Below are positions 12,163 to 44,636 of a DNA stretch of 64,000 nt, piece after piece; position 1 is the stretch's first letter; each line of letters starts with the position of its first letter. The DNA comes from Bacteroidota bacterium (GTDB taxonomy: Bacteria; Bacteroidota; Bacteroidia; Bacteroidales; SZUA-534): assembly GCA_003250355.1 (NCBI GenBank), contig QKGS01000089.1, positions 1 through 64,000 on the forward strand, in the 5' to 3' direction. The notes under the pieces are model-generated. The model saw only the letters and a list, made by a program, of their open reading frames with translations. It was not told where the DNA came from and searched no databases. Position numbers and translations under genes: made by a program.

Positions 12163-13236
12163 ATGAAAATCAAAAGCATATTAAAAAAACTACAATTAGC
12201 CATGCTTGCATTTGGCATAGCCATGGGTATTATTTTTCCTGTATATGCAGGCTTCTTTGTTGAATGGAAAGCAGGAATGTTTGGTTTCTTTGTTGCCGGT
12301 TGTATGGCAGCAGGCATTACTGTTGGCCTTGTAAGTTTTTGGTTTGTTAAGGTTATACTTATCAAGCGCTTAAAAGAAGTATCGCAAGTAGCCTCCGATA
12401 TTGAAAAAAACATTCTGTTAAACACCTCCTCACTTGAAAGTGCCGACGAAATAGGAACTATTGTAAATGGCTTAAACAAAGCAATACTCAATATCCGCTA
12501 TTTATTTTCAGAAATGAATGAGGTATTTAAAATATCAGAAACAGCACTAATGTCGGTAAACAGTTCAAAACATGGCGATTCGTCCATAGAACAAATAAAT
12601 AAAGCTATTGCCGGTGTAACTCTAAACACAGAAAGCATTGACAGTTTCTGTAAAATGATTGATAATTCGGTAAAAAAAGGCAGCGCAATAGCATTATGCA
12701 CTCATGAACGTCAGGCAGGAACCATGAATAGCATTTCTGAACTCAACAACGTTGTAAAATCGTTAGCAAACCATTCTGAGAAAGTTGAGAGTATTGTTGA
12801 TATTATAGAACAAATTGCTTCGCAAACAAATATACTATCGCTTAATGCTTCAGTTGAAGCCGCTCGTGCAGGTGAATACGGCAAAGGCTTTGCTGTTGTT
12901 GCCGATGAGGTTCGCAAGTTGGCAAGCGAAACGAAAAACTCAGTACAAGGAATTTCATTAACTGTAAATTATATTAAAAACGATATTGAAAAGGCCACTA
13001 AAAAAGCTGCCGATATTACTAATGAAATAAAAGGTAATCGCAATGATGTAGACGATATTAATAAACAATTTATAAATATTACCGAAGTCATTAACAACAG
13101 CGTTGAACACAACAAACAACTGGCTGAATCTGTTACCAGACTCAATGTGCTATTTAACTCTATTCAGTCAGTATTTATATCACTTGGCACTAACCTAAAC
13201 CGCATTCAGAACAAAATAAAAACCTACAAATTTTAA
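12163..13236 (+). CDS. methyl-accepting chemotaxis protein-like receptor
   Basis: A 357-residue membrane signalling protein. Two hydrophobic segments (about 12-30 and 39-67) are separated by only a few residues, so there is no real extracellular sensor domain. A HAMP-like linker follows. The signalling hairpin tip is clear: [20 protein letters not shown] and [21 protein letters not shown]. In classical systems this tip binds CheW and CheA, neither of which is in this window. The CheR and CheB enzymes at 42.4-44.6 kb could methylate it, but they belong to a different operon. Cytoplasmic or membrane-state sensing is likely. It is monocistronic. Confidence 0.88.
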
Positions 13237-33451: not shown

Positions 33452-33486
33452 AAAAAAAAGAGGCATCAAAAAAATTGACACCTCTT
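33452..33486 (-). terminator. terminator at the end of the signalling operon
   Basis: On the minus strand AAGAGG(TG)TCAA pairs with TTGA(TG)CCTCTT, with G-U wobbles closing the two inner positions only in the minus-strand RNA, followed by a run of T. It lies 20 bases after the stop of the gene at 33507. Confidence 0.75.
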
Positions 33487-33506
33487 CTTAAACAATATTT
33501 TTATAT

Positions 33507-33938
33507 CTAATTTGCATTAATATAGGAAAGAATAGCTACCGCTTTTCCTTCTAAACCTCCCTTAAATGATATTTCAATTGTATACATCCCAGTTTTCTGA
33601 CACTGAAAACCCACAGCACTCAAAAAACTACCATCTGGCTTCATATTTGTGCCCAACATACTCGCTCCTTCAAGTAACTTCACTACAGCTTGCCCCGGTG
33701 ATGATTCTGCATTACAAACAGTAATTTTATACATTGTCCCCTTATTCATGATAACATTATACTTAGCTGAAGGTGGAGAAACACTACTGCCAGAAAGTCC
33801 AACTTTATAATCTTTTAAATATGTTGCATTTCCTATACTCAATGCACACACATTAACTAACTCATCACTCTGACCTAAAATAAAAGTAGCCTGTAGTGTA
33901 AAGAGTAAGCTAATTAAAATTTTAACAATATTCTTCAT
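33507..33938 (-). CDS. exported protein of unknown function, last gene of signalling operon
   Basis: A 143-residue protein with a signal peptide ending FILGQ (residue 23). The mature part looks like a single beta-sandwich (YNVIMNKGTMYKITVC, GQAVVKLLEG, VGFQCQKTGMYTIEISFKGG), with three cysteines. There is no lipobox and no T9SS tail, so it is probably periplasmic. I do not recognise the family. It starts one base after the lipoprotein gene, so the two are a pair. A terminator follows. Confidence 0.65.
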   Translation of the reverse strand: MKNIVKILISLLFTLQATFILGQSDELVNVCALSIGNATYLKDYKVGLSGSSVSPPSAKYNVIMNKGTMYKITVCNAESSPGQAVVKLLEGASMLGTNMKPDGSFLSAVGFQCQKTGMYTIEISFKGGLEGKAVAILSYINAN

Positions 33939-33939
33939 A

Positions 33940-34857
33940 CTACATATTTATTATTTTGTTACGAACTTCTTCAATAATATTAATGATATTAGCTAGTGTT
34001 TCATCTGAAATATCAATATGCTGTTTATCATTTTGAACTATTATTAGCATCCCATCAATCTCTTTTGCTTCCGGCTCTCCCATTTCGTATGTAATTTTTA
34101 CATTATCATACTCTTTTTTAATCTTCTCTACTTCTTTAACCAAGTTCTCATAATTAGGATCACCCTTGTAGTTTTTCAATATTAATAATAAATCATTTAA
34201 TACCAACTTTTGATCTGCCACACGCTCTACAACCTCTTCCGATGGTGCTTTACTTGCTACCTGAGTTGCCAAATACATTCCTTCAACCCACATACCGGTA
34301 ACTATTAACGAACTAATATTACTCCTGTTTGATTGACGCAAATATTGATCCATATTATTGAAACTTGATACAGATATATACATCAATGAATCAAGATTCT
34401 CATTATTTGTTGCCAAACGCTTAATAGTGCTAAAATCAAAAAACTGACCTATTCTTAATTCATTAGCCAATGTTTTTATTGCCTGCATATTTGAAAGTAC
34501 AGAACCTGTTTTCTCATACATATTCAAATACCCAAGATCACACCCATATATTCCAAGATTTAATGCTTGCTTAAAATTTGTATTAAGCTTATCAATCCTG
34601 TCGGTTGATGCCAAATATTTTTGATTGAAAGGAACTCCGGTCGACTTCAATAAAGCTGCCATCTCTACTGGCGATGATATGTTATCAATAATATCTTCCA
34701 TTGCCTCCTGAGATATCATTAAAGGCTTATCGCTAAAAATTGAATCAGGTATTTCAAAACCACTTGTTTTGTTTTTGTTGCTATTGCCACTACAACCTAC
34801 TATTAGCAATGATGCTACTATTGCAATAGTTCCAATTTTAATAGTTCTTAATTTCAT
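33940..34857 (-). CDS. lipoprotein of unknown function in signalling operon
   Basis: A 305-residue lipoprotein; the signal peptide ends in LLIVGC with Cys22 as lipidation site. The mature chain appears almost wholly alpha-helical (INSV-type patterns such as SSPVEMAALLKSTGVPFN, YGCDLGYLNMYEKTGSVLSN, ITYEMGEPEAKEIDGMLIIV). It has no enzyme motif that I see. Position after the TerB-ABC transporter suggests an envelope partner, but that is inference. It is 47 bases after that gene. Confidence 0.65.
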   Translation of the reverse strand: MKLRTIKIGTIAIVASLLIVGCSGNSNKNKTSGFEIPDSIFSDKPLMISQEAMEDIIDNISSPVEMAALLKSTGVPFNQKYLASTDRIDKLNTNFKQALNLGIYGCDLGYLNMYEKTGSVLSNMQAIKTLANELRIGQFFDFSTIKRLATNNENLDSLMYISVSSFNNMDQYLRQSNRSNISSLIVTGMWVEGMYLATQVASKAPSEEVVERVADQKLVLNDLLLILKNYKGDPNYENLVKEVEKIKKEYDNVKITYEMGEPEAKEIDGMLIIVQNDKQHIDISDETLANIINIIEEVRNKIINM

Positions 34858-34904
34858 TTCTTCTTATTTTTTATAAAAATAAAGCTTTTTTTTTATTCGT
34901 TATA

Positions 34905-37900
34905 TTATTTCTGAAACAAGTCTAATAATTTCTTAAGCCAATCGAAATACAATGCTATATAACAAACTATTGTCATAAACCATACCACCCACATATTAAA
35001 CCAAAAAGTATCAATATTTTTCCCAAAAAAATGCTTGATTGGAGAGAAAAAATGGGCTCTAAAATCAAATGGATGATCTATCCATGGCATTTCAAATATC
35101 GGATCTGTTTGTTGTATTAATCGATCTTTATAAGCTATTATCTTATTCTTCTCATATATTTTCTTAACAATATCTTGTACTGCTTCATTATGATACTTTT
35201 GTCGGGTACTCATATACTGCCCCGGATAGTTAGCATCCAAATAGTTTATAATCTTCTCCTTTTTACTACTTGCCTGCGAAAACATTGCATCATAATACAT
35301 TTGAAGTTTATCTAAATGAATATGTATTAACTCTCCAATTTGCTCGCTATATTTCCCCTTCTCTATATAATTCAACCCTTCAAAATCAGCCTGAGGTACA
35401 CGCTGCGACTCTTTATAAAGTTCGTTTTTAATTAACGCTAAATTTTGATCTACTTCGTCCAAAACTGATTCATCATCAGAGGTGTAATTATTTGAGCAAA
35501 AATCAACCTTATCTCTTAATTCAGGTAAATAATATACATTTTTAAAATCAGCAACACTAACAAGCCTTTCTATTTCATAAAATTCCTTTTCAAACTTATT
35601 ATCCTTAAACTGGCGAACCATTAATCCTTCATATACCCACCGTGTTGCCATTAATTCACACACAGGCGGAACACCTTCTACACTACCAATAGCTCTGTTA
35701 AGTTTGTCAAAACTAAACATAGCACCACCTAATGCCATTTGAGGAATCATTACAAGCGGTATCATTATGTAAATAGTAACAGCAGAACTAAATGCCGAAG
35801 AAAGATTTAAACCCAACATATTTGAAAAAGTAGCAATAGTAAAAAGAGCCCACCAATACTCAAACCAAAGACCATGAATCCCTAGAATAATATTCCCTAC
35901 AAGAACAAACAAAACTGACTGTATTGCTGATATAAGAAAGAGAATTGATATTTTTGAAATAAGGTAACTAGAACGGCTTAAATTTAAAAAAGACTCCCGC
36001 TTAAGTATTTTTCTATCTTTAAATATTTCCTCTCCACTCACCATTAAACCCAAAAACATTGCAACAATTGCACTCATGAAAATATACACAGGTATGTTTG
36101 CATTTTCCCTGAATATATATATTCTTGAGTTTGGATCTGCAATATATCTAATTAGAAATGCTAAAATAAAACCCAACAAAGGAGCCTCTAGCAAGTTTAA
36201 TAAAAGATACTGCCTGTCGCTTATTTTTGATAAAAAGTCTCGTTTAAAATAAATCATTACCTGAATAAACCACGAAGGTATATTCAATGACTTTGGTGGT
36301 TCCTCATGTAAATCGTCGTGCTTTTCTAACTTAGGCTGTCTCTTATATTTAGTTTCCCATTCTGTAGGCGAAACTTTTCTCTTATTTGTATAACGCCCAA
36401 ATTCATCAACAACCTGAGCATCGATGATATTGAATATCAATTCGGGGTTTACATTACCACAAGTCTGGCATTCACCAACATCGGAATTAATTTGAGCATC
36501 TTCACGTTTAAAATAAGTTACAGCTTCAACCGGATTACCATAATATATAAGATAGCCTCCGGTATCTAGTATAACCATCTTATCGAACATCTTATATATT
36601 TCAGATGACGGTTGGTGTATTACTACATATATAAGCTTACCTTTCATTGCAAGCTCACGGAGTAAGTCCATTACATTTTCAGAATCGCGAGACGACAACC
36701 CTGAAGTTGGCTCATCAACAAAAAGAATAGGAGGCTCTCTAATTAGCTCTAATGCAATATTAAGACGTTTTCTTTGTCCGCCACTAATAGTTTTATTAAG
36801 CGGCGATCCGACTTTAAGATCTTTTCGATCAAATAGTCCGAGGTTTGAGAGTGTTTTTTCAACCCTTCCATGAATTTCCTCATCGCTTAAATCTTTAAAA
36901 CACAGTTTTGCATTAAAAAACAGGTTTTCATACACTGTAAGTTCTTCTATTAAAAGATCATCCTGAGGTATATAACCAATAACCCCATCCATTTTTTCTT
37001 TTTCGGTATGTAAATTTATACCATTAATAAGAACTTCTCCCTTTGAAGGAGATTCAATACCTGTTAATACATTTAGCAGAGTTGTTTTTCCGGCACCACT
37101 AGCGCCCATAATTCCAATTAATCGACCTTGCTCTTCGGATATATTAATATCACGCAAACCAATAGCTCCATTTGGAAACTTAAACTCTACATCGTTTACA
37201 TTATATGTAATTTTAGCCGAAGTAAAATCGGCTAAAAATTTTGACACAACATCACTATAATACACAGGCTTTCCTTTAGGAAAACGAATAGCACTACCAT
37301 TGGCAAATAAATAAACACTATTCCCCTTTATTGGCAAGCCATTTAGCAATAAATCAGAAGAGCCTGTATATCTTATAAAATAAAGCTCAACACTTTTTAT
37401 ATGCAATATAAAAAGATCATTATCGAGCTCCTCGATTTCAATATGCTTTGCATTATTTAATTTTGTTTCCTTATCGCTAATTACAAGAACTGTTGGAATA
37501 TCAAGATCTTCCTGAGTATCTTTTGTTATAAATGTCTGAGTGAATTTAAATTCATCTTCTGAAATATTAAATACTTCGGCAACAGTATTAATAATAGCCA
37601 TTCGTTGTTCGCTAAATTTCTTATCAGCAGCAATTAACTCAAACAACCTTACTAAAACTACAACTTTCTGTTCCTGAGTAAGAGTTTTATTAATTTTTTT
37701 ACAAATTCCTAATATTCTTACAGAATCCTTAACTGATGTCAATTGAGGCTCTTCACTCCCTTTATTAGCTCTATACTCTTCAATATCTTTTATATCTGCA
37801 TGTTTATAAAACAATGCCATATACTCCGATACAAAATCAGAACTTAATTGCGATGTAAGAAATTTTTCAACAAACTCAATTTCATTATCTTCAATGCCAC

Positions 37901-37961
37901 CATCTTGTTTTGCAATGATGGCAAAAAGTTGCATTAAAGCTTTTAATATTTCTTCACTCAT
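34905..37961 (-). CDS. TerB-like domain fused to ABCG-type ABC transporter
   Basis: A 1018-residue inner-membrane protein. Residues 1-150 are a helical TerB-like domain (LMQLFAIIAKQDGGIEDNEI, VRLFELIAADKKFSEQR) that may sense or bind metal. Residues 155-245 are a beta-rich segment. The ABC ATPase (about 250-475) is complete: Walker A GASGAGKTT, Q-loop IGYIPQDDLL, signature ISGGQRKRLNIA, Walker B ILFVDEPTSGLSS, switch VVIHQPSSE. The rest has an ABCG-type membrane domain with about six helices and a long helical insert before the last one. ATPase-first order matches eukaryotic White/ABCG half-transporters. Substrate unknown. Likely output of the Sia-type switch upstream. Confidence 0.85.
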   Translation of the reverse strand: MSEEILKALMQLFAIIAKQDGGIEDNEIEFVEKFLTSQLSSDFVSEYMALFYKHADIKDIEEYRANKGSEEPQLTSVKDSVRILGICKKINKTLTQEQKVVVLVRLFELIAADKKFSEQRMAIINTVAEVFNISEDEFKFTQTFITKDTQEDLDIPTVLVISDKETKLNNAKHIEIEELDNDLFILHIKSVELYFIRYTGSSDLLLNGLPIKGNSVYLFANGSAIRFPKGKPVYYSDVVSKFLADFTSAKITYNVNDVEFKFPNGAIGLRDINISEEQGRLIGIMGASGAGKTTLLNVLTGIESPSKGEVLINGINLHTEKEKMDGVIGYIPQDDLLIEELTVYENLFFNAKLCFKDLSDEEIHGRVEKTLSNLGLFDRKDLKVGSPLNKTISGGQRKRLNIALELIREPPILFVDEPTSGLSSRDSENVMDLLRELAMKGKLIYVVIHQPSSEIYKMFDKMVILDTGGYLIYYGNPVEAVTYFKREDAQINSDVGECQTCGNVNPELIFNIIDAQVVDEFGRYTNKRKVSPTEWETKYKRQPKLEKHDDLHEEPPKSLNIPSWFIQVMIYFKRDFLSKISDRQYLLLNLLEAPLLGFILAFLIRYIADPNSRIYIFRENANIPVYIFMSAIVAMFLGLMVSGEEIFKDRKILKRESFLNLSRSSYLISKISILFLISAIQSVLFVLVGNIILGIHGLWFEYWWALFTIATFSNMLGLNLSSAFSSAVTIYIMIPLVMIPQMALGGAMFSFDKLNRAIGSVEGVPPVCELMATRWVYEGLMVRQFKDNKFEKEFYEIERLVSVADFKNVYYLPELRDKVDFCSNNYTSDDESVLDEVDQNLALIKNELYKESQRVPQADFEGLNYIEKGKYSEQIGELIHIHLDKLQMYYDAMFSQASSKKEKIINYLDANYPGQYMSTRQKYHNEAVQDIVKKIYEKNKIIAYKDRLIQQTDPIFEMPWIDHPFDFRAHFFSPIKHFFGKNIDTFWFNMWVVWFMTIVCYIALYFDWLKKLLDLFQK

Positions 37962-37996
37962 CCTATTGGATTAAATTAAATGCTAAAACCGACAAA

Positions 37997-38380
37997 TTAA
38001 TCCAACGGATAACTAATTTGCTCAAACGGAACTTCAACAATATCCGAATATTCTTCTCCTGCCTCTTCCATATCTTCATCATCTTCAGGATAATGCCAAC
38101 GTATCATTACATCTTTACCTGATTCATACATCTCCTCTAATTTCAAAAGGATATCCAATATCATTTTTGATGACGCTGTATTAAAATAAACCAATTTGAA
38201 ATTAAATACAGTTTTACCTGATGCTTCTTCTGAGTATCTTTCAATCCAATCCAAAATTGGCTCATAAAAAGCTGCTACATCTTCCGGCAATGAACGACCT
38301 GAAATTTCAAATATTTCATTTGCAACATCTAATGTTACACTAGGCGTATCATCTGTTCCAACTATTTTTATTACTTCCAT
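37997..38380 (-). CDS. SiaC-family regulatory phosphoprotein (DUF1987)
   Basis: A 127-residue cytoplasmic switch protein. In Pseudomonas aeruginosa SiaC is phosphorylated on Thr68 by SiaB and dephosphorylated by SiaA; the unphosphorylated form activates the diguanylate cyclase SiaD. Here the motif LVYFNTASSKMILDIL puts a threonine exactly at residue 68. PSVTLDVANEIFEISGRSLPED and the acidic end DEDMEEAGEE are also typical. It sits between the kinase gene and the TerB-ABC transporter, and no diguanylate cyclase is present, so the target must differ. I infer the transporter or its TerB domain. Confidence 0.87.
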   Translation of the reverse strand: MEVIKIVGTDDTPSVTLDVANEIFEISGRSLPEDVAAFYEPILDWIERYSEEASGKTVFNFKLVYFNTASSKMILDILLKLEEMYESGKDVMIRWHYPEDDEDMEEAGEEYSDIVEVPFEQISYPLD

Positions 38381-38400
38381 AAAGCTATATGTTTTTAAAA

Positions 38401-38976
38401 TTATCTTGTTATTGTACTTGTTAAAACCATAAATGAAAAATCATCATTAATAGGTGCAAAATGAAAATGTATCTTGTTTCCGGTCTTTTTAGCAATATCA
38501 ATAAATCCGAGACCTGCTCCTCCTTTATTTGAAAGGCGTCCCTCCTTTATTTGATGTTTGTATAATTGTTTTAAACCTTCTTTATCAAGACTATTTATAT
38601 TATCTAACGAACTCCCTATTTCGTCAACCTTATGCTTTTGTATAATATTCCCTGTTGTAATAGTATACTCTGTCTCATTTTTACATAAAACAAAAACACC
38701 TCTCCCGTCTTTATTGAAATCTTCAGGATTCATAGGATCTGCATGTTTGCCAATATTTTGCAGACACTCAATCATAACATGGAATACTTTCTTTTGCGTA
38801 TTATTCGATTCCTCTGTTAATTGCATATTTGTTTCTGTAAGCGAAGTAAATGCTTTTGTAATTTGGTGCGTTATTTCACCTTCGTAAACCAACTCAACTT
38901 TTGCATCTTTCATTGATTTATAAAAGGTGTAAACAAACTCCAAAAATTCTTTTATTTCGACATTATTCTCATCCAT
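38401..38976 (-). CDS. SiaB-family protein kinase (DUF6272)
   Basis: A 191-residue GHKL-fold kinase expected to phosphorylate the SiaC-type protein on threonine. The ATP-binding N-box is in VMIECLQNIGKHAD (Glu70, Asn74) and the glycine-rich lid in NKGGAGLGFIDIAKKTGN (residues 150-167), with GRGVFVLC between. It lacks the histidine of two-component kinases and has no sensor domain, as in known SiaB. It is 19 bases after the phosphatase gene and 20 before the SiaC gene, the same order as in siaABC. Confidence 0.87.
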   Translation of the reverse strand: MDENNVEIKEFLEFVYTFYKSMKDAKVELVYEGEITHQITKAFTSLTETNMQLTEESNNTQKKVFHVMIECLQNIGKHADPMNPEDFNKDGRGVFVLCKNETEYTITTGNIIQKHKVDEIGSSLDNINSLDKEGLKQLYKHQIKEGRLSNKGGAGLGFIDIAKKTGNKIHFHFAPINDDFSFMVLTSTITR

Positions 38977-38995
38977 AATACTGATGATTTAATAA

Positions 38996-41620
38996 TTAAA
39001 ACTCTATTCCTATCAATAATACGTCATCAATTTGTTTAAAGTCACCTTTATACTCTTTGAAGTCTTTATCAAAAAAAACCTCATATTGAGACATCGTAAA
39101 ATTTGGATTCTCCACAATATGATCTCTTATTCTCTTAGCCTGATATTTTTTTCCTGAATCACCACCTATTTGATCAGGCAATCCATCTGAAAAGAAGAAC
39201 ACCTTATCGCCTTGTTGAATATCAAGGACATGGTTTACGAAATCTTTTTCAGGTTTCTTACCATATGGAATTCCTCCAATTGCTTTTCTGTTTCCTTTAA
39301 ACTCTTCAAGTTCACCATTCCTCACCCGGTATAAAGGCCGATGCGCTCCGGCATACTCAAGCTTTTTATTCTTAAGATTAATCTTACACAATGCTATATC
39401 CATACCATCACGAGCTTCAGAATCTATTCTATCCTGCTTTAAAGTTGTTCTTACTCCTTCGTGAAGCTTATCAAGAACCTGCCCTGCATTTATATCGTCG
39501 TAATGGTCAACAACATTATTCAAAATAAAATATCCAATAAACGATAGCAGTGCTCCAGGTACACCATGACCGGTACAATCTACTGCCGATATAAAAAGAT
39601 CATCTCCTTTTTTAAAGAACCATGGAAAATCACCACTAACTAAATCGCGTGGTTTGTACAAAATAAATGATTTTTCTAGAAATTCCTGTATATATTTTGT
39701 ATTTGGTAAAATTGAAGTTTGAATTCTTTGGGCATAATTAATACTTTCCTGCACAGCCCTGTTCTTTTCTTTAATCTCTTCTTCTATCTTTTTTTGCTCT
39801 GTTATATCATGAGCAACAAACAAAATTGTTTCCAAATCATTATCCTCACTAAATTCAGGAATAGCATTTACCTGCATTATTCTGTCGCCAAAATTAGTAG
39901 GAAACGTTGTCTCTGTATTAGTTTTTTGCTGAGTAGACTTTACCTTTTGTATTGATTCAAGAAAGAAATCTTTTATTTGCTTATTAAAATTAACATCAAC
40001 TAATTTCTTTTGTACTATCTCATTATTATTAACTCCGGTAAATATTTTTACAATGGGGTTAGCATAAAAAAACTGACCATTTGGACTTAATCTTATAATC
40101 ATATCAGGAGAGTTCTCTGAAAGAGACTGCATTTTACTCTTCATTCGCTCTTCCTTTTCAGCTCTCTTTCGTTCGGTAATATCCTGCGAATTTACAATAA
40201 TACCATTTATTGCCTGATCTTGAAGCAAATTACGCCCTGTCGATTCAATATATATTTTCTGCCCATCTTTACGCATATATGTATATTGAATAATCTCTGA
40301 AGCATCGGGCCTGCTATTAAGACGAACAAACATATCAGAAAATTCCTTAACTCCCTTTGCTGTTAATCTGTCCATATCCTTACCTTCGATCATTTCTTCG
40401 GTCGAATAACCATAAATTTTTGATACAGAAGGACTAATATACTTTAGTTTCATATCCTCATCATAGATAGAAATTATTTCAGAAGCGTTTTCTAACAGTG
40501 AATGCATACGCTTTTGAGCATTCTCTACTTCACGAATTTGGGTTTCTAAATTAGAGTTGGTTTTTTCCAGCTCTTCGTGAGTTGCACGCATTTCTTCGGC
40601 ATTCTGCCTAAGTTCTTCTTCATTTTCCTGCAACTCATTGGTCATTTCCTGAGCATCTCTCAGTAGTTTTTCAGTTCTAGTATTAACTTTTAGGTTAAAA
40701 ATAGTACGAGCTATAATATCACTTAGCTCCTCTAAGAAAGTAATCGACAACTTATCAATATCATTATCAAGAGAGGCAAACTCCATTACTCCCTGAAGCT
40801 TTTCGTCGGTAATTAAAGGTACAAGCAGTAATGAAGTAGGCTTTTTATCACCTAGAATACCTGACTTTACAGTTGTATAACCTTCAGGTATTTCCCTTCG
40901 GTATATTGTATCCATTTCATAAGCACACTGACCAACCAAACCCTCACCAATATGAAATTCCTGTTCTTGATACTTTTGCCTGTTATAGGCATAGGTTGCT
41001 GTATTTTTTAACACTTTAGTTTCTTCATTATAAATGTACAATGCTCCTTGCAATACATTTATATATTTTATAAGCTCAACCAGTGTTTTTATTGACAATT
41101 CGTCCAAATCATTTTGCATTCGCAGAATATCTGATATAATATCCTTACCTTGTGCAATCCAATTCTGCTGTCTCTCTTTTTCATTTGATTCAGCTAAGTT
41201 TTCACGCATTCTTAACAATGATTGCCCAAGGATATCATTATCGTCAATTGCTTCATGTTTGGCAGAAAGTTCTCCATCACCAATTTTTTTAGCAAAACGG
41301 GCATTCTTATTTATTATATCATCCTTTTCCTTGATAACATCAATTAATTTCCCATTATCATTTTGATATTGCTTTGAAATTGCAGAACCTATAAATGCAA
41401 ACAAAAGAGGTAAAGCATCAATTGCAAAATAAACAGGACTAACTTTATGTAACTCCCATATGCCTTTAAGCGACAATGTGGCAACACCAAACATGAATCC
41501 GATAATCCATGCCAATATTACAAAAACTACACCTAAAACAGTAAAACCAACCATATAGTTGACTTTTTCATCTGTTTTAAATGCCAGAATTTCTGATATT
41601 TTTGAATACAATGAATTCAT
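38996..41620 (-). CDS. membrane GAF/PAS sensor PP2C phosphatase (SiaA-like)
   Basis: An 874-residue sensor phosphatase. Two helices (about 22-46, 60-80) and a HAMP-like linker come first. A GAF domain (165-315) follows, then a coiled coil rich in EEL/EEM (318-375), two PAS domains (376-490 and 495-615; the first ends DITERKRAEKEE), and a SpoIIE-type PP2C domain (640-874). Metal motifs SGDFPWFF, VDCTGHGVPGALLS, ARDGMDIALC, FSDGLPDQIGG and IDDVLLIGI are intact. Compared with P. aeruginosa SiaA, the input is cytoplasmic (GAF, PAS) and not periplasmic. It should dephosphorylate the SiaC-type protein. Confidence 0.88.
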   Translation of the reverse strand: MNSLYSKISEILAFKTDEKVNYMVGFTVLGVVFVILAWIIGFMFGVATLSLKGIWELHKVSPVYFAIDALPLLFAFIGSAISKQYQNDNGKLIDVIKEKDDIINKNARFAKKIGDGELSAKHEAIDDNDILGQSLLRMRENLAESNEKERQQNWIAQGKDIISDILRMQNDLDELSIKTLVELIKYINVLQGALYIYNEETKVLKNTATYAYNRQKYQEQEFHIGEGLVGQCAYEMDTIYRREIPEGYTTVKSGILGDKKPTSLLLVPLITDEKLQGVMEFASLDNDIDKLSITFLEELSDIIARTIFNLKVNTRTEKLLRDAQEMTNELQENEEELRQNAEEMRATHEELEKTNSNLETQIREVENAQKRMHSLLENASEIISIYDEDMKLKYISPSVSKIYGYSTEEMIEGKDMDRLTAKGVKEFSDMFVRLNSRPDASEIIQYTYMRKDGQKIYIESTGRNLLQDQAINGIIVNSQDITERKRAEKEERMKSKMQSLSENSPDMIIRLSPNGQFFYANPIVKIFTGVNNNEIVQKKLVDVNFNKQIKDFFLESIQKVKSTQQKTNTETTFPTNFGDRIMQVNAIPEFSEDNDLETILFVAHDITEQKKIEEEIKEKNRAVQESINYAQRIQTSILPNTKYIQEFLEKSFILYKPRDLVSGDFPWFFKKGDDLFISAVDCTGHGVPGALLSFIGYFILNNVVDHYDDINAGQVLDKLHEGVRTTLKQDRIDSEARDGMDIALCKINLKNKKLEYAGAHRPLYRVRNGELEEFKGNRKAIGGIPYGKKPEKDFVNHVLDIQQGDKVFFFSDGLPDQIGGDSGKKYQAKRIRDHIVENPNFTMSQYEVFFDKDFKEYKGDFKQIDDVLLIGIEF

Positions 41621-41629
41621 ATTGTTATT

Positions 41630-42397
41630 TTATATTTCCGGAGTTAAATTGCCAATAAAATTTGAAATTTCATCGGCCCCCATTATAATACCTTTGCCAA
41701 CTTTTTTAAATGTAGCTATTTCTATTACACCTACAGCAATATCATTTTTAATTAATGGTAATAACATTAAATTTGATGGTTTTTCATTTCCTAAACCTGA
41801 AATAACCTGAACATACCCTTTGGGCACATCAGATAAAAAAATTGCTTTTTTATCTTTTACTACCTGTCCGTTTATACCCTCGCCCTCTTTAAATGATGGT
41901 GGAGTTTTATCTGCAAAATAGCTATAAGTTGCTACCGAATTATATTCTGTTCCATTAAACTTATATACTATTCCTATTACCATTTCCATTTGTTTACTTA
42001 CCGCAGTTAATAATGACTGCCCGAATCGTTCCCAATCGGTAATGCCACTCAATGCATCTTTCAACTTACTCAAACTTAACGATATTTCATCGGCTTCCTT
42101 TGCTTTTTTCTCTACCTCTTTGTCCATTTGCTCAATTTCTGTATCGTGTAAAACAGACATTTTCCTTTCACCAAATAATATTTCATTTATAACTTTTACT
42201 CCTGTAACAGCCATTGATATATTTAATGGTATTAACAATACGAATAATAACAGAAGAATTAAAACACTAGCCTCACCTTTAAAAATAGGCGCAAAAGAAA
42301 ACAGTAATACTATCGACACTAAAATTGTTAATATCGCAGCAAAACCGGTTGCTATAAGCTTCTTTTTATTTTTAATTAATTCTTCCATATGGTACAA
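41630..42397 (-). CDS. membrane-anchored GAF protein
   Basis: A 255-residue protein with two transmembrane helices (about 15-37 and 43-65), a coiled-coil linker, and a GAF domain at about 110-245. The GAF domain has KEGEGINGQVVKDKKAIFL, VPKGYVQVISGLGNEKPSNL and LLPLIKNDIAVGVIEIATF, and is a close paralogue of the GAF domains in the phosphatase at 38996 and the hydrogenase-linked sensor at 60771. It has no output domain, so it probably works by pairing with the phosphatase through the coiled coil (inference). It lies one base after cheB and nine before the phosphatase. Confidence 0.8.
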   Translation of the reverse strand: MYHMEELIKNKKKLIATGFAAILTILVSIVLLFSFAPIFKGEASVLILLLLFVLLIPLNISMAVTGVKVINEILFGERKMSVLHDTEIEQMDKEVEKKAKEADEISLSLSKLKDALSGITDWERFGQSLLTAVSKQMEMVIGIVYKFNGTEYNSVATYSYFADKTPPSFKEGEGINGQVVKDKKAIFLSDVPKGYVQVISGLGNEKPSNLMLLPLIKNDIAVGVIEIATFKKVGKGIIMGADEISNFIGNLTPEI

Positions 42398-42398
42398 T

Positions 42399-42962
42399 TC
42401 ACGCTAAATTTAATAAAAAATTGATTATTTTCTGTGTAGAAAATACATGATCAACGTTTGTTGCATTCATTGAAGCCAATGTCATAGTAGGAACCTGACA
42501 CTCATTGGGGTCTTGAACAATGGTTAATCCACCGGCATCTTTTACACTTTTCAAGCCTAAAGCGCCATCTTTATTTGCCCCACTTAATATAATACCTACT
42601 AACTTGTTCTTATAATTATATGCAGCAGTAAAAAAAGATAGATCTATTGCCGGTCTGGAATGATTAACTACATCTTCTGTAGATAATGCAAATTTATTAC
42701 CCAATTCAACATACATATGATAATTTGCAGGAGCCAAATATATTCTGCCTGACTTAATTGGATCTTTGTCGTCGGGTTCAATTATAGGCATTTGCGATTT
42801 GATAGATAAAGCTTCGACAAAACCTGAACGCACGTGCTTAAGCCTATGCAAACAAAGCATTACCGGTAAGGGATAATCCTTAGGTAAGGAAGCAACAATT
42901 TTTGTTACCACCTGAAAACTACCGGCAGAGCCTCCTATCATTATGGCTTTGTAATTACTCAT
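42399..42962 (-). CDS. stand-alone CheB-type methylesterase
   Basis: A 187-residue protein consisting only of the catalytic domain of CheB, without the receiver domain of classical chemotaxis CheB. It removes methyl groups from glutamates of receptors. The triad is visible: Ser in IMIGGSAGSFQVV, His in LCLHRLKHVRSGF, Asp in GIILSGANKDGALGLKSV. VQDPNECQVPTMTLASM is also a family hallmark. With no CheA, CheW or receptor in the operon, the target may be the GAF/PAS coiled-coil proteins next to it. The ATG overlaps the previous stop (TAATG). Confidence 0.88.
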   Translation of the reverse strand: MSNYKAIMIGGSAGSFQVVTKIVASLPKDYPLPVMLCLHRLKHVRSGFVEALSIKSQMPIIEPDDKDPIKSGRIYLAPANYHMYVELGNKFALSTEDVVNHSRPAIDLSFFTAAYNYKNKLVGIILSGANKDGALGLKSVKDAGGLTIVQDPNECQVPTMTLASMNATNVDHVFSTQKIINFLLNLA

Positions 42963-43786
42963 TAACTCCTCTTTCTATATATTTTTTCAATACTATCAAA
43001 TGTATATAGTCGCTTTGAGACTTCCGAATGATTTATGGTCTCTTTGTTTCCCAATATTAAATAAGCTCCTACTGTTAAATTATCCATCAAATTTTGCAGA
43101 ACCCGCTCATATAATGGCATATTATATTGTATCATTAAATTACGACAAAAGATCATTCTATATGATTTATCGCTTTTGTCTTGTGATATATTAAAATTAT
43201 TAAACTCAACATTTTCAATTAGCGATGTATCCATATATGCAAAATTATCGGATACTGTATAATATTTAGTAAACTCAAACTTTCCCGAAAAACGCGTATA
43301 ATTAGCTTCACCTAATTCCATACGCTTCATAGGGAAAATACCACCTTTTTTAATGCGGTCTATTCTAATATTTGAAGGACATGAAGCAACAACTCTTACA
43401 TCTTTCTGTAAGCCCATTTCATGTAAAACAACCATTAAAGAATATAGTTCTTCGCCCGAAGACACCCCTGACATCCATATTTTTGAACCTGGAGAGCTAC
43501 ATATTTCAGGCAATAATTTTTCTCTTACTTCTCGCCAAAGGGATGGATCTCTAAACAATTCTGTTGTGTCGATCATTAACTTGTCAACAAAATCATCAAA
43601 ATCAATATTATTGCGATGAATTTGTTCCACAAGAATATCGGCACTTAAAATATTTAAACACCCCATAACATACAAAAACCTACGCCTTAATGTTGTAAGG
43701 GTATAATTTGAATAGTCAACGCCATACATATCATTAATGGCTGCTATTATTTTTTTTGTATCTACTATACCGAGTGTTGTGCTCAT
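42962..43786 (-). CDS. CheR-like methyltransferase, divergent copy
   Basis: A 274-residue CheR family protein, paralogue of the next one. The N-terminal helical domain (TLTTLRRRFLYVMGC) and IDTTELFRDPSLWREVREKLLPEI are normal, and the SAM region starts GVSSGEELYSLMV. But the next strand reads VVASCPSNIRI where CheR has ATDI or ASDI, so the acidic residue that holds SAM is lost, and CRNLMIQYN replaces CRNVLIYF. It may be a poor or non-catalytic enzyme that regulates its partner. It lies seven bases after the canonical CheR gene. Confidence 0.8.
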   Translation of the reverse strand: MSTTLGIVDTKKIIAAINDMYGVDYSNYTLTTLRRRFLYVMGCLNILSADILVEQIHRNNIDFDDFVDKLMIDTTELFRDPSLWREVREKLLPEICSSPGSKIWMSGVSSGEELYSLMVVLHEMGLQKDVRVVASCPSNIRIDRIKKGGIFPMKRMELGEANYTRFSGKFEFTKYYTVSDNFAYMDTSLIENVEFNNFNISQDKSDKSYRMIFCRNLMIQYNMPLYERVLQNLMDNLTVGAYLILGNKETINHSEVSKRLYTFDSIEKIYRKRS

Positions 43787-43793
43787 TTAAAAA

Positions 43794-44636
43794 CTAAAAT
43801 TGTTTCTTTTTATAAAAACCTTTTGTTCTATCAAAACTATTTGACGCTTGTCCTAAAATACTCTCATGTGCTCCTAAAATAAGAAATCCATCGCGATATA
43901 AACTATTCCCAAAGAGGTCTATAACTCTATTTTGCAAATTGTTATTAAAGTAAATAATTACATTTCTGCATAAGATAAGGTCAAATTTGGAGTAAAAAAT
44001 ATTCCCGTCTTTTACAAGGTCATGCTTTCTAAAAACTGCTTTTTCTCTCAAAAATTGTTTCATGGTGATAGTATCTTTAACCTTATCAATATCGAAATAT
44101 TTTTCGTATGGGACATCAAATTTTTCTTCGAAATTATATGGATTTTCCCTTATCACCTTGTCAAAATTATCGAGATAGCCAAGATTAAAACGATACTTAT
44201 AAACACCTGCTTTTGATTTTTCAAGCATCTCAGAATTAATATCCGTAGCAAAAACTTTTGCCTGATCTAACATTCCCATTTCATTTAACAATATGAGCAT
44301 GGAATATATTTCCTGTCCGCTGGAACAGCCGGCATGCCAAATAAATATTGATTTATTTTTCTTTAGTTTTGGAAGAATCTGATATCGTAAAGTGATCCAC
44401 ATTTCCGGGTCACGAAATAGTTCGGTAGTGTTTACAGTAATATCACGAACAACTTTCTCAAGAAAAACTTTATCTTTTGATAGTTTGTAAGTCAATTGAT
44501 TTAAATCTATTCCATTGTCGACCAACAGTTTTTCAACTCTACGCTTAAATGATCGTTCGGAATAATCAGTAAAGTCGTAAGTAGATGCGGCCTGAATTGA
44601 ATTTATAAATCTTTGAACATCTTCGTTAGTTACCAT
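43794..44636 (-). CDS. CheR-type protein-glutamate methyltransferase
   Basis: A 280-residue SAM-dependent enzyme that methylates glutamates of signalling proteins. Motifs are intact: RRVEKLL in the N-terminal domain, VNTTELFRDPEMWITLRYQI, WHAGCSSGQEIYSMLILLNE, VFATDINSEMLEKSKAGVY (acidic SAM residue) and FDLILCRNVIIYFNNN. It is the first gene of the ten-gene operon that runs to 33507. The region upstream (44637-44925) holds a GAGCA...TGCTC inverted repeat near 44663, but no clear -7 box. Confidence 0.9.
   Translation of the reverse strand: MVTNEDVQRFINSIQAASTYDFTDYSERSFKRRVEKLLVDNGIDLNQLTYKLSKDKVFLEKVVRDITVNTTELFRDPEMWITLRYQILPKLKKNKSIFIWHAGCSSGQEIYSMLILLNEMGMLDQAKVFATDINSEMLEKSKAGVYKYRFNLGYLDNFDKVIRENPYNFEEKFDVPYEKYFDIDKVKDTITMKQFLREKAVFRKHDLVKDGNIFYSKFDLILCRNVIIYFNNNLQNRVIDLFGNSLYRDGFLILGAHESILGQASNSFDRTKGFYKKKQF

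Follow-up and report, generated by a model that had tools for sequence, protein, structure and literature searches.

A conserved Bacteroidota operon combining CheR and CheB genes with a SiaABC switch and a TerB-ABCG exporter

Organization of the locus

Here we describe ten genes packed on the minus strand at positions 33507-44636 of a 64,000-nucleotide stretch of DNA, hereafter the window, from a Bacteroidota bacterium of the order Bacteroidales (GenBank contig QKGS01000089.1, positions 1 to 64,000). In order of transcription they encode CheR1, CheR2, CheB, a membrane protein with a GAF domain (GAFm), the phosphatase SiaA, the kinase SiaB, the phosphoprotein SiaC, an ABCG-type exporter with an N-terminal TerB domain, a lipoprotein and an exported protein. 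The original prediction, made from the letters of the window, proposed a ten-gene operon of these families, and this was borne out: all ten open reading frames (ORFs) were confirmed, the profile searches against Pfam and NCBIfam by which we assigned domains recovered the families, and the intergenic gaps, counted from 33507 upward, are 1, 47, 35, 20, 19, 9, 1, -1 and 7 bases, the negative value being one base common to CheB and CheR2. A terminator-like stem follows the last gene; terminator-like sites in the region number 9 against 5.2 expected in shuffles, and promoter-like sites 65 against 70.3 expected, so that no promoters were established. The features, all on the minus strand, are as follows.

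33455..33489, minus strand: terminator-like hairpin after the last gene, 15-pair stem (4 G-C) and T-run
33507..33938, minus strand: 143-residue exported protein with a signal-like N-terminus
33940..34857, minus strand: probable lipoprotein of 305 residues, largely helical, retained downstream of the exporter
34905..37961, minus strand: TerB-FHA-like-ABCG exporter, 1018 residues (TerB, ABC_tran and ABC2_membrane)
37224..37502, minus strand: predicted FHA-like domain, exporter residues about 154-246 (model)
37521..37961, minus strand: TerB domain, exporter residues 1-147 (Pfam TerB, 33.9 bits; structure model)
37997..38380, minus strand: SiaC regulatory phosphoprotein (PF09345, 145.4 bits; 6kko, E 1.1e-18)
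38177..38179, minus strand: SiaC Thr68 codon, predicted phosphosite (Thr in 73 of 73 aligned SiaC sequences)
38401..38976, minus strand: SiaB family protein kinase (NF038262, 166.9 bits against a cut-off of 85; DUF6272, 142.2 bits)
38996..41620, minus strand: SiaA-like membrane phosphatase, transmembrane-GAF-coiled coil-PAS-PAS-PP2C (SpoIIE)
40580..40597, minus strand: EEMRAT methylation consensus in SiaA, residues 342-347 (E343 the predicted methylated residue)
41630..42397, minus strand: GAFm, two-helix membrane protein with a GAF domain
42399..42962, minus strand: CheB methylesterase domain alone (Pfam CheB_methylest, 162.3 bits)
42962..43786, minus strand: CheR2 (Pfam CheR, 77.4 bits)
43794..44636, minus strand: CheR1 (Pfam CheR, 133.3 bits)

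The last two proteins of the operon, both predicted at first to be exported, have no Pfam match; the signal-like N-terminus of the 143-residue protein agrees with that prediction, and the 305-residue protein is refined to a probable lipoprotein because an invariant Cys22 follows its signal-like segment. A model of the lipoprotein (predicted local distance difference test score, pLDDT, 82.4) identified no fold, the best Foldseek E being 0.67 and the best VIA-align Z 5.9. By Pfam, none of the ten operon proteins has a methyl-accepting chemotaxis protein (MCP) signalling domain or is a CheA or CheW, and the operon CheB gave no match to a receiver domain.

Conservation of gene order

The ten-gene order is kept in all eight same-family loci taken (the close relatives of the host genome are Salinivirgaceae), among which SiaC is the best-kept protein, at 87-93%, with SiaB at 61-74% and GAFm at 36-44%. 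The series SiaB-SiaC-exporter-lipoprotein-exported protein is retained in each of the 11 same-order operon loci; SiaA is present in 10, CheB is nearby in 7, GAFm in 7 and both in 6, and L063, L067 and L068 (loci, genomes and contigs carry our labels L, G and C) have neither. Loci from other Bacteroidota were the best 80 of 578 relatives, of which 52 are well flanked, with 8.5 kb upstream and 1.5 kb downstream, and the other 28 were set aside. In these 52, SiaC lies upstream in 43, and SiaB is found in 43, SiaA in 42, the lipoprotein in 43 and the exported protein in 42. A SiaA-SiaB-SiaC-exporter-lipoprotein core is present in 40, the other 12 being not of this kind; 32 of the 40 core loci add CheR, CheB and GAFm to these; CheB and GAFm are both missing from the remaining 8. 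Complete operons occur in named Cytophagales isolates, for example Persicobacter sp. CCB-QB2, Nafulsella turpanensis, Cesiribacter and Flexithrix dorotheae.

The neighbours are therefore conserved in same-family, same-order and other Bacteroidota loci, and the lack of conservation that would have counted against the original prediction was not seen. A gene order that recurs in Bacteroidota so distant is incompatible with chance, which leads us to reject an accident of gene placement local to one lineage, and the operon is almost certainly one conserved functional unit. Variants occur: two SiaC genes in L127, two SiaB genes in L138 and L173, and a 380-residue SiaB in L163.

A SiaC switch in genomes that lack GGDEF domains

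The switch proteins recall the SiaABCD system of Pseudomonas aeruginosa, for which published accounts (PMC7647112, PMC8457831) describe a PP2C phosphatase, the kinase SiaB and a SiaC whose Thr68 begins helix 2. That threonine is a known phosphosite, and the published account has unphosphorylated SiaC bind and activate the diguanylate cyclase SiaD, an action blocked by Thr68 phosphorylation (PMC7647112). SiaC of the operon (127 residues) aligns end to end with P. aeruginosa SiaC (6kko). The NCBIfam equivalog cut-offs for the Pseudomonas proteins are not reached, however, the scores being 178.9 bits for SiaA (cut-off 700), 82.3 for SiaB (225) and 91.7 for SiaC (150). Unlike the Pseudomonas system, the operon has no SiaD, its effector gene is the exporter, its SiaA carries GAF and PAS domains and a methylation consensus, and CheR and CheB genes accompany it.

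The likeness of SiaA, SiaB and SiaC to the P. aeruginosa set could point to a pathway of the same type, acting through cyclic di-GMP (c-di-GMP) with the cyclase encoded elsewhere. We consider this extremely improbable. The host genome (G000; 106 contigs totalling 3.70 Mb, with a completeness of 99.98%) gave no GGDEF match in a search by which 8 of 14 control genomes were positive. We also surveyed 60 genomes, namely the host's own, 19 of the same family and 40 of the same order from 40 families; GGDEF occurs in only one, G057, itself without SiaC, and in none of the 36 that bear SiaC. A c-di-GMP output is rejected on these grounds, and the cyclase that might have claimed this SiaC elsewhere in the genome, a prospect raised with the original prediction, was not found. 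Because neither the host nor the 36 SiaC-bearing genomes has a GGDEF domain, the SiaC switch must, judging from their sequences, have another target here than a diguanylate cyclase.

Co-occurrence of SiaC and the exporter

The exporter is found in 36 of the 60 genomes and SiaC in the identical 36, both being missing from the other 24; a genome survey of co-occurrence had been proposed as a check with the original prediction. In the 40 same-order genomes the SiaC/exporter table is 16/0/0/24 (Fisher 1.6e-11); CheR, used as a control, fits less well (15/8/1/16). The two are also joined in a second layout, in which lipoprotein-exporter is convergent with SiaC-SiaB, in 9 genomes including the host's. 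At the scale of the phylum, where two exporter candidates were scored per genome, SiaC is present in 22 of 395 genomes, a near-full-length exporter in 6 and both in 5. From the match in 36 of 60 genomes set against these phylum-scale counts, it appears that SiaC and the exporter go together within the class and that outside it SiaC has other partners.

We think it likely that SiaC acts on the exporter. Several observations weigh against this. SiaC-bearing genomes among the 60 hold 2 to 20 copies, and the host holds 17, of which 15 are not beside a TerB-ABC exporter gene; 2 of the host's 4 exporters have no adjoining SiaC, and 13 of the 20 exporter paralogue loci retrieved show none beside them. 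Across the phylum, 17 of 22 SiaC genomes are without a full-length exporter, and one of the six genomes with a near-full-length exporter, G406, is without SiaC. SiaC might then control something else, such as a sigma factor or another enzyme, with the exporter merely co-regulated; one host SiaC gene does adjoin SiaB and an extracytoplasmic function (ECF) sigma factor gene. We judge this unlikely, though a shade less so than the separation of the Che genes considered below, as SiaB-SiaC is joined to the exporter in two different layouts, the 36 of 60 genomes with SiaC are exactly those with the exporter, and exporter-linked SiaCs sit on short branches of the SiaC tree, most other paralogues being on long ones. 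That tree is poorly resolved, with 7 of 36 inner branches starred, and too short to place the two exporter-linked kinds of SiaC as sisters or otherwise.

Elsewhere in the host genome (loci among L010-L024, on contigs including C1, C10 and C14), SiaC genes have metabolic neighbours, among them an Fe-only hydrogenase operon (L014) and a 2-oxoacid:ferredoxin oxidoreductase (L017); at L015 the neighbour is a metallo-beta-lactamase/flavodoxin protein, and L019 has the order SiaB-SiaC-ECF sigma factor.

The cytoplasmic N-terminus of the exporter

The ABC motifs of the exporter are intact (Walker A at 286, signature at 393, Walker B at 413, H-loop at 448) and precede an ABC2 membrane domain, the ABCG-type arrangement. 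Five peaks of hydrophobicity fall within 586-750, followed by a soluble segment some 235 residues long and a final helix at 986-1004. An AlphaFold2 model of the N-terminus (39 sequences, pLDDT 86.6) gives residues 1-147 a TerB fold, matching 2h5n with Z 8.9 (root-mean-square deviation, rmsd, 3.5; 115 aligned) and 2ou3 with Z 8.1. Behind it, model residues 133-246 match the FHA domain 1g6g (Z 7.7, rmsd 3.4, 87 aligned) and residues 156-236 match 5yyx (Z 7.4, rmsd 1.8, 76 aligned); Foldseek placed many FHA domains among its best matches for this region, the best at E 0.01. As none reached E 0.001 and structural Z values under 8 are common, a degenerate FHA-like sandwich at about 154-246 is likely, short of proof.

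A profile of this region found one family in the Protein Data Bank (PDB), the MEK1 FHA domain, at a weak E of 0.36. In that weak alignment the LNG turn is kept and the SLNG position has no Asn, so the canonical phosphothreonine contacts look lost, which counts against the scheme proposed below. Canonical recognition of SiaC phosphothreonine by the FHA-like domain is accordingly unsupported, its binding Asn being unmatched; non-canonical binding is possible. A known parallel is the Mycobacterium tuberculosis pair Rv1747/Rv2623, which the published work (PMC5549992) gives as an ABC exporter with an N-terminal FHA domain and a small phosphothreonine-bearing regulator protein. In contrast, the FHA-like domain here is without recognisable phosphothreonine contacts and has TerB ahead of it, and the candidate regulator is SiaC.

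A methylation consensus in the SiaA coiled coil

SiaA has two predicted transmembrane helices, a GAF domain, a coiled coil, two PAS domains and a PP2C domain (Pfam SpoIIE, 55 bits) in which GD, DxTGHG, SDG and DD, which we take to be the PP2C motifs, are conserved across 67 sequences. The original prediction placed methylation on coiled coils generally, and we can narrow this to one likely site: EEMRAT, in the coil between GAF and PAS, fits the chemoreceptor methylation consensus. This consensus was taken from E. coli work on Tsr (PMC1079850), a system that shares with the operon CheR and CheB genes as well as the motif, and that differs in that a phosphatase or GAF-PAS receptor takes the place of the MCP as presumed substrate here, the CheB lacks a receiver and the operon lacks CheA and CheW.

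The strict pattern occurs in 38 of 64 distinct SiaA coils against 1.17 expected on shuffling each coil, and in 2 of 114 unrelated ORFs of the host genome; in a control set of 168 ORFs that includes redundant operon genes it occurs in 3. The consensus was spotted on inspecting the coil, and the motif test was thus not blind. Some loci also encode a receptor, a GAF-coil-PAS protein, in some cases with HAMP, without an output domain. Among 48 distinct CheB-linked loci (three duplicate SiaA rows and the contig-edge loci L143 and L167 dropped; the window's own locus outside the 48), the motif lies in SiaA only in 29, in SiaA and the receptor in 3, in the receptor only in 11 and in neither in 5. It is therefore in SiaA or a co-encoded receptor at 43 of the 48 loci linked to CheB; the figure for loci without CheB is 5 of 13 (SiaA 4, receptor 1, neither 8; Fisher 0.00036, uncorrected for descent). 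The motif is common to the Cytophagales-type and Bacteroidales-type branches of the SiaA tree, where 9 of the 11 receptor-only loci group together as a clade. A Marinilabiliaceae-type version (L105, L107, L114, L119, L126, L128 and L069) adds a long CheB-like protein of 327-385 residues, in L069 a receiver-CheB, together with a motif-bearing GAF-PAS receptor, and its SiaA has lost the motif.

CheR1 has canonical-looking motifs (ITVNTTELFRDP, HAGCSSGQE, ATDIN and CRNVIIYF). Bacteroidales CheR1 and the single CheR of Cytophagales-type loci are canonical. In a 54-sequence alignment, CheR2 of Bacteroidales has lost the CRN motif and, in nearly all copies, the acidic Asp that we take to belong to the S-adenosylmethionine (SAM) site, and is probably altered or inactive. 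GAFm and CheB are present together or missing together over the 40 core loci (32/0/0/8).

These observations make it probable that CheR and CheB act on SiaA or on a co-encoded receptor. Other results pull the opposite way. Seven of the 8 loci with neither CheB nor motif lie in one SiaA clade, so the link between the two is not independent of descent; the motif is absent from 5 CheB-linked loci (L061, L070, L158, L163 and L173) and present in 5 without CheB; GAFm and CheB part at L071 (CheB without GAFm and without SiaA) and L072 (GAFm without CheB); and the SiaA coil gave 10 weak matches in the PDB, none an MCP. Three other SiaA-like proteins near SiaC genes in the host genome have no motif.

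The host genome also offers CheR and CheB a possible conventional substrate. It holds 10 MCP frames, one of them within the window (12163-13236, plus strand; an MCP-like two-helix protein of 357 residues, 20 kb from the operon). CheW domains were matched 6 times, and two of these matches lie in frames 686 and 705 residues long. Three CheR and two CheB genes are present, of which two and one, respectively, are in the operon, and contig C83 has the further CheR and CheB. Given these MCPs, CheW-domain matches and C83 genes, the genome has, in addition to the operon, an ordinary chemotaxis system equipped with a CheR and a CheB of its own. The predicted absence of chemoreceptor, CheA, CheW and diguanylate cyclase thus holds for the operon and, genome-wide, for GGDEF only, MCP and CheW-domain proteins being present.

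The Che genes and the SiaABC-exporter set could therefore be neighbours with separate jobs, CheR and CheB serving MCPs made elsewhere and SiaABC alone controlling the exporter. Besides the 10 MCP frames, the 8 of 40 core loci without linked CheB and the 8 of 60 genomes (one weak) with CheR and no SiaC fit such a division. We nevertheless find it unlikely: C83 supplies a separate CheR and CheB for the chemotaxis CheW-domain proteins, GAFm tracks CheB, the consensus is carried by SiaA or by a HAMP-GAF-PAS protein that is co-encoded and lacks an output domain, and the operon includes Che genes in both branches of the deepest division among SiaA sequences.

A model for adaptive control of export

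Together, the observed gene content, conservation, co-occurrence, motif, predicted folds and absence of GGDEF lead us to propose the following scheme. SiaA would sense through its GAF and PAS domains, and CheR would methylate, and CheB demethylate, Glu343 in the SiaA coil or a site in the co-encoded receptor, with GAFm a partner of CheR and CheB or a second input. The methylation state would set the phosphatase output of SiaA, and SiaA and SiaB together would determine whether SiaC is phosphorylated at Thr68. One of the two forms of SiaC, which would be the unphosphorylated form if P. aeruginosa is a guide, may then bind the cytoplasmic TerB/FHA-like N-terminus and gate the exporter, which the lipoprotein and exported protein could serve in the periplasm. 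Methylation of SiaA, binding of SiaC to the exporter, the direction of gating and a cargo all belong to the predicted part of the scheme. Taking every step together, we rate it an even chance that the operon is an adaptive signalling unit controlling an ABC exporter. More tentative still, falling somewhat below that, is the general form, in which a methyl-accepting PP2C sensor phosphatase gives the SiaC switch a memory and SiaC gates an exporter directly across much of Bacteroidota. The self-contained path from methylation through phosphatase and SiaC to transporter that was first predicted is supported by inference, with the qualifications that the operon is not the genome's only methylation system and that most host SiaC genes lie apart from TerB-ABC genes.

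Were the scheme correct, methylation adaptation would govern transport without an intervening histidine kinase, receiver domain or second messenger, and methylation of SiaA, if it occurs, would give the chemotaxis adaptation enzymes a second kind of substrate. SiaC proteins are common, though their best-studied effector is one diguanylate cyclase; where no such cyclase is found SiaC must do otherwise, and among the candidates the exporter has the most support. Partner switches that end in a cyclase, HptB-HptR-HsbA among them, likewise have (PMC8457831) a phosphatase/kinase pair acting on a STAS-like protein; effector and input differ here. The parts are known, and in the open-licence PubMed Central literature searched we came upon no account that pairs CheR/CheB with SiaABC or SiaC with a TerB-ABC exporter, nor one of the wiring joining all three, in agreement with the original prediction.

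Two minor observations concern exporter genes. At L139 the exporter gene is present as two frames of 134 and 883 residues, a break or a split gene. At L075:11882-14473 (G000:C101:19882-22473), an 863-residue frame that adjoins a TerB-ABC paralogue combines a carbonic anhydrase (Pro_CA, 141.5 bits) with an MCP signalling domain (111.9 bits).

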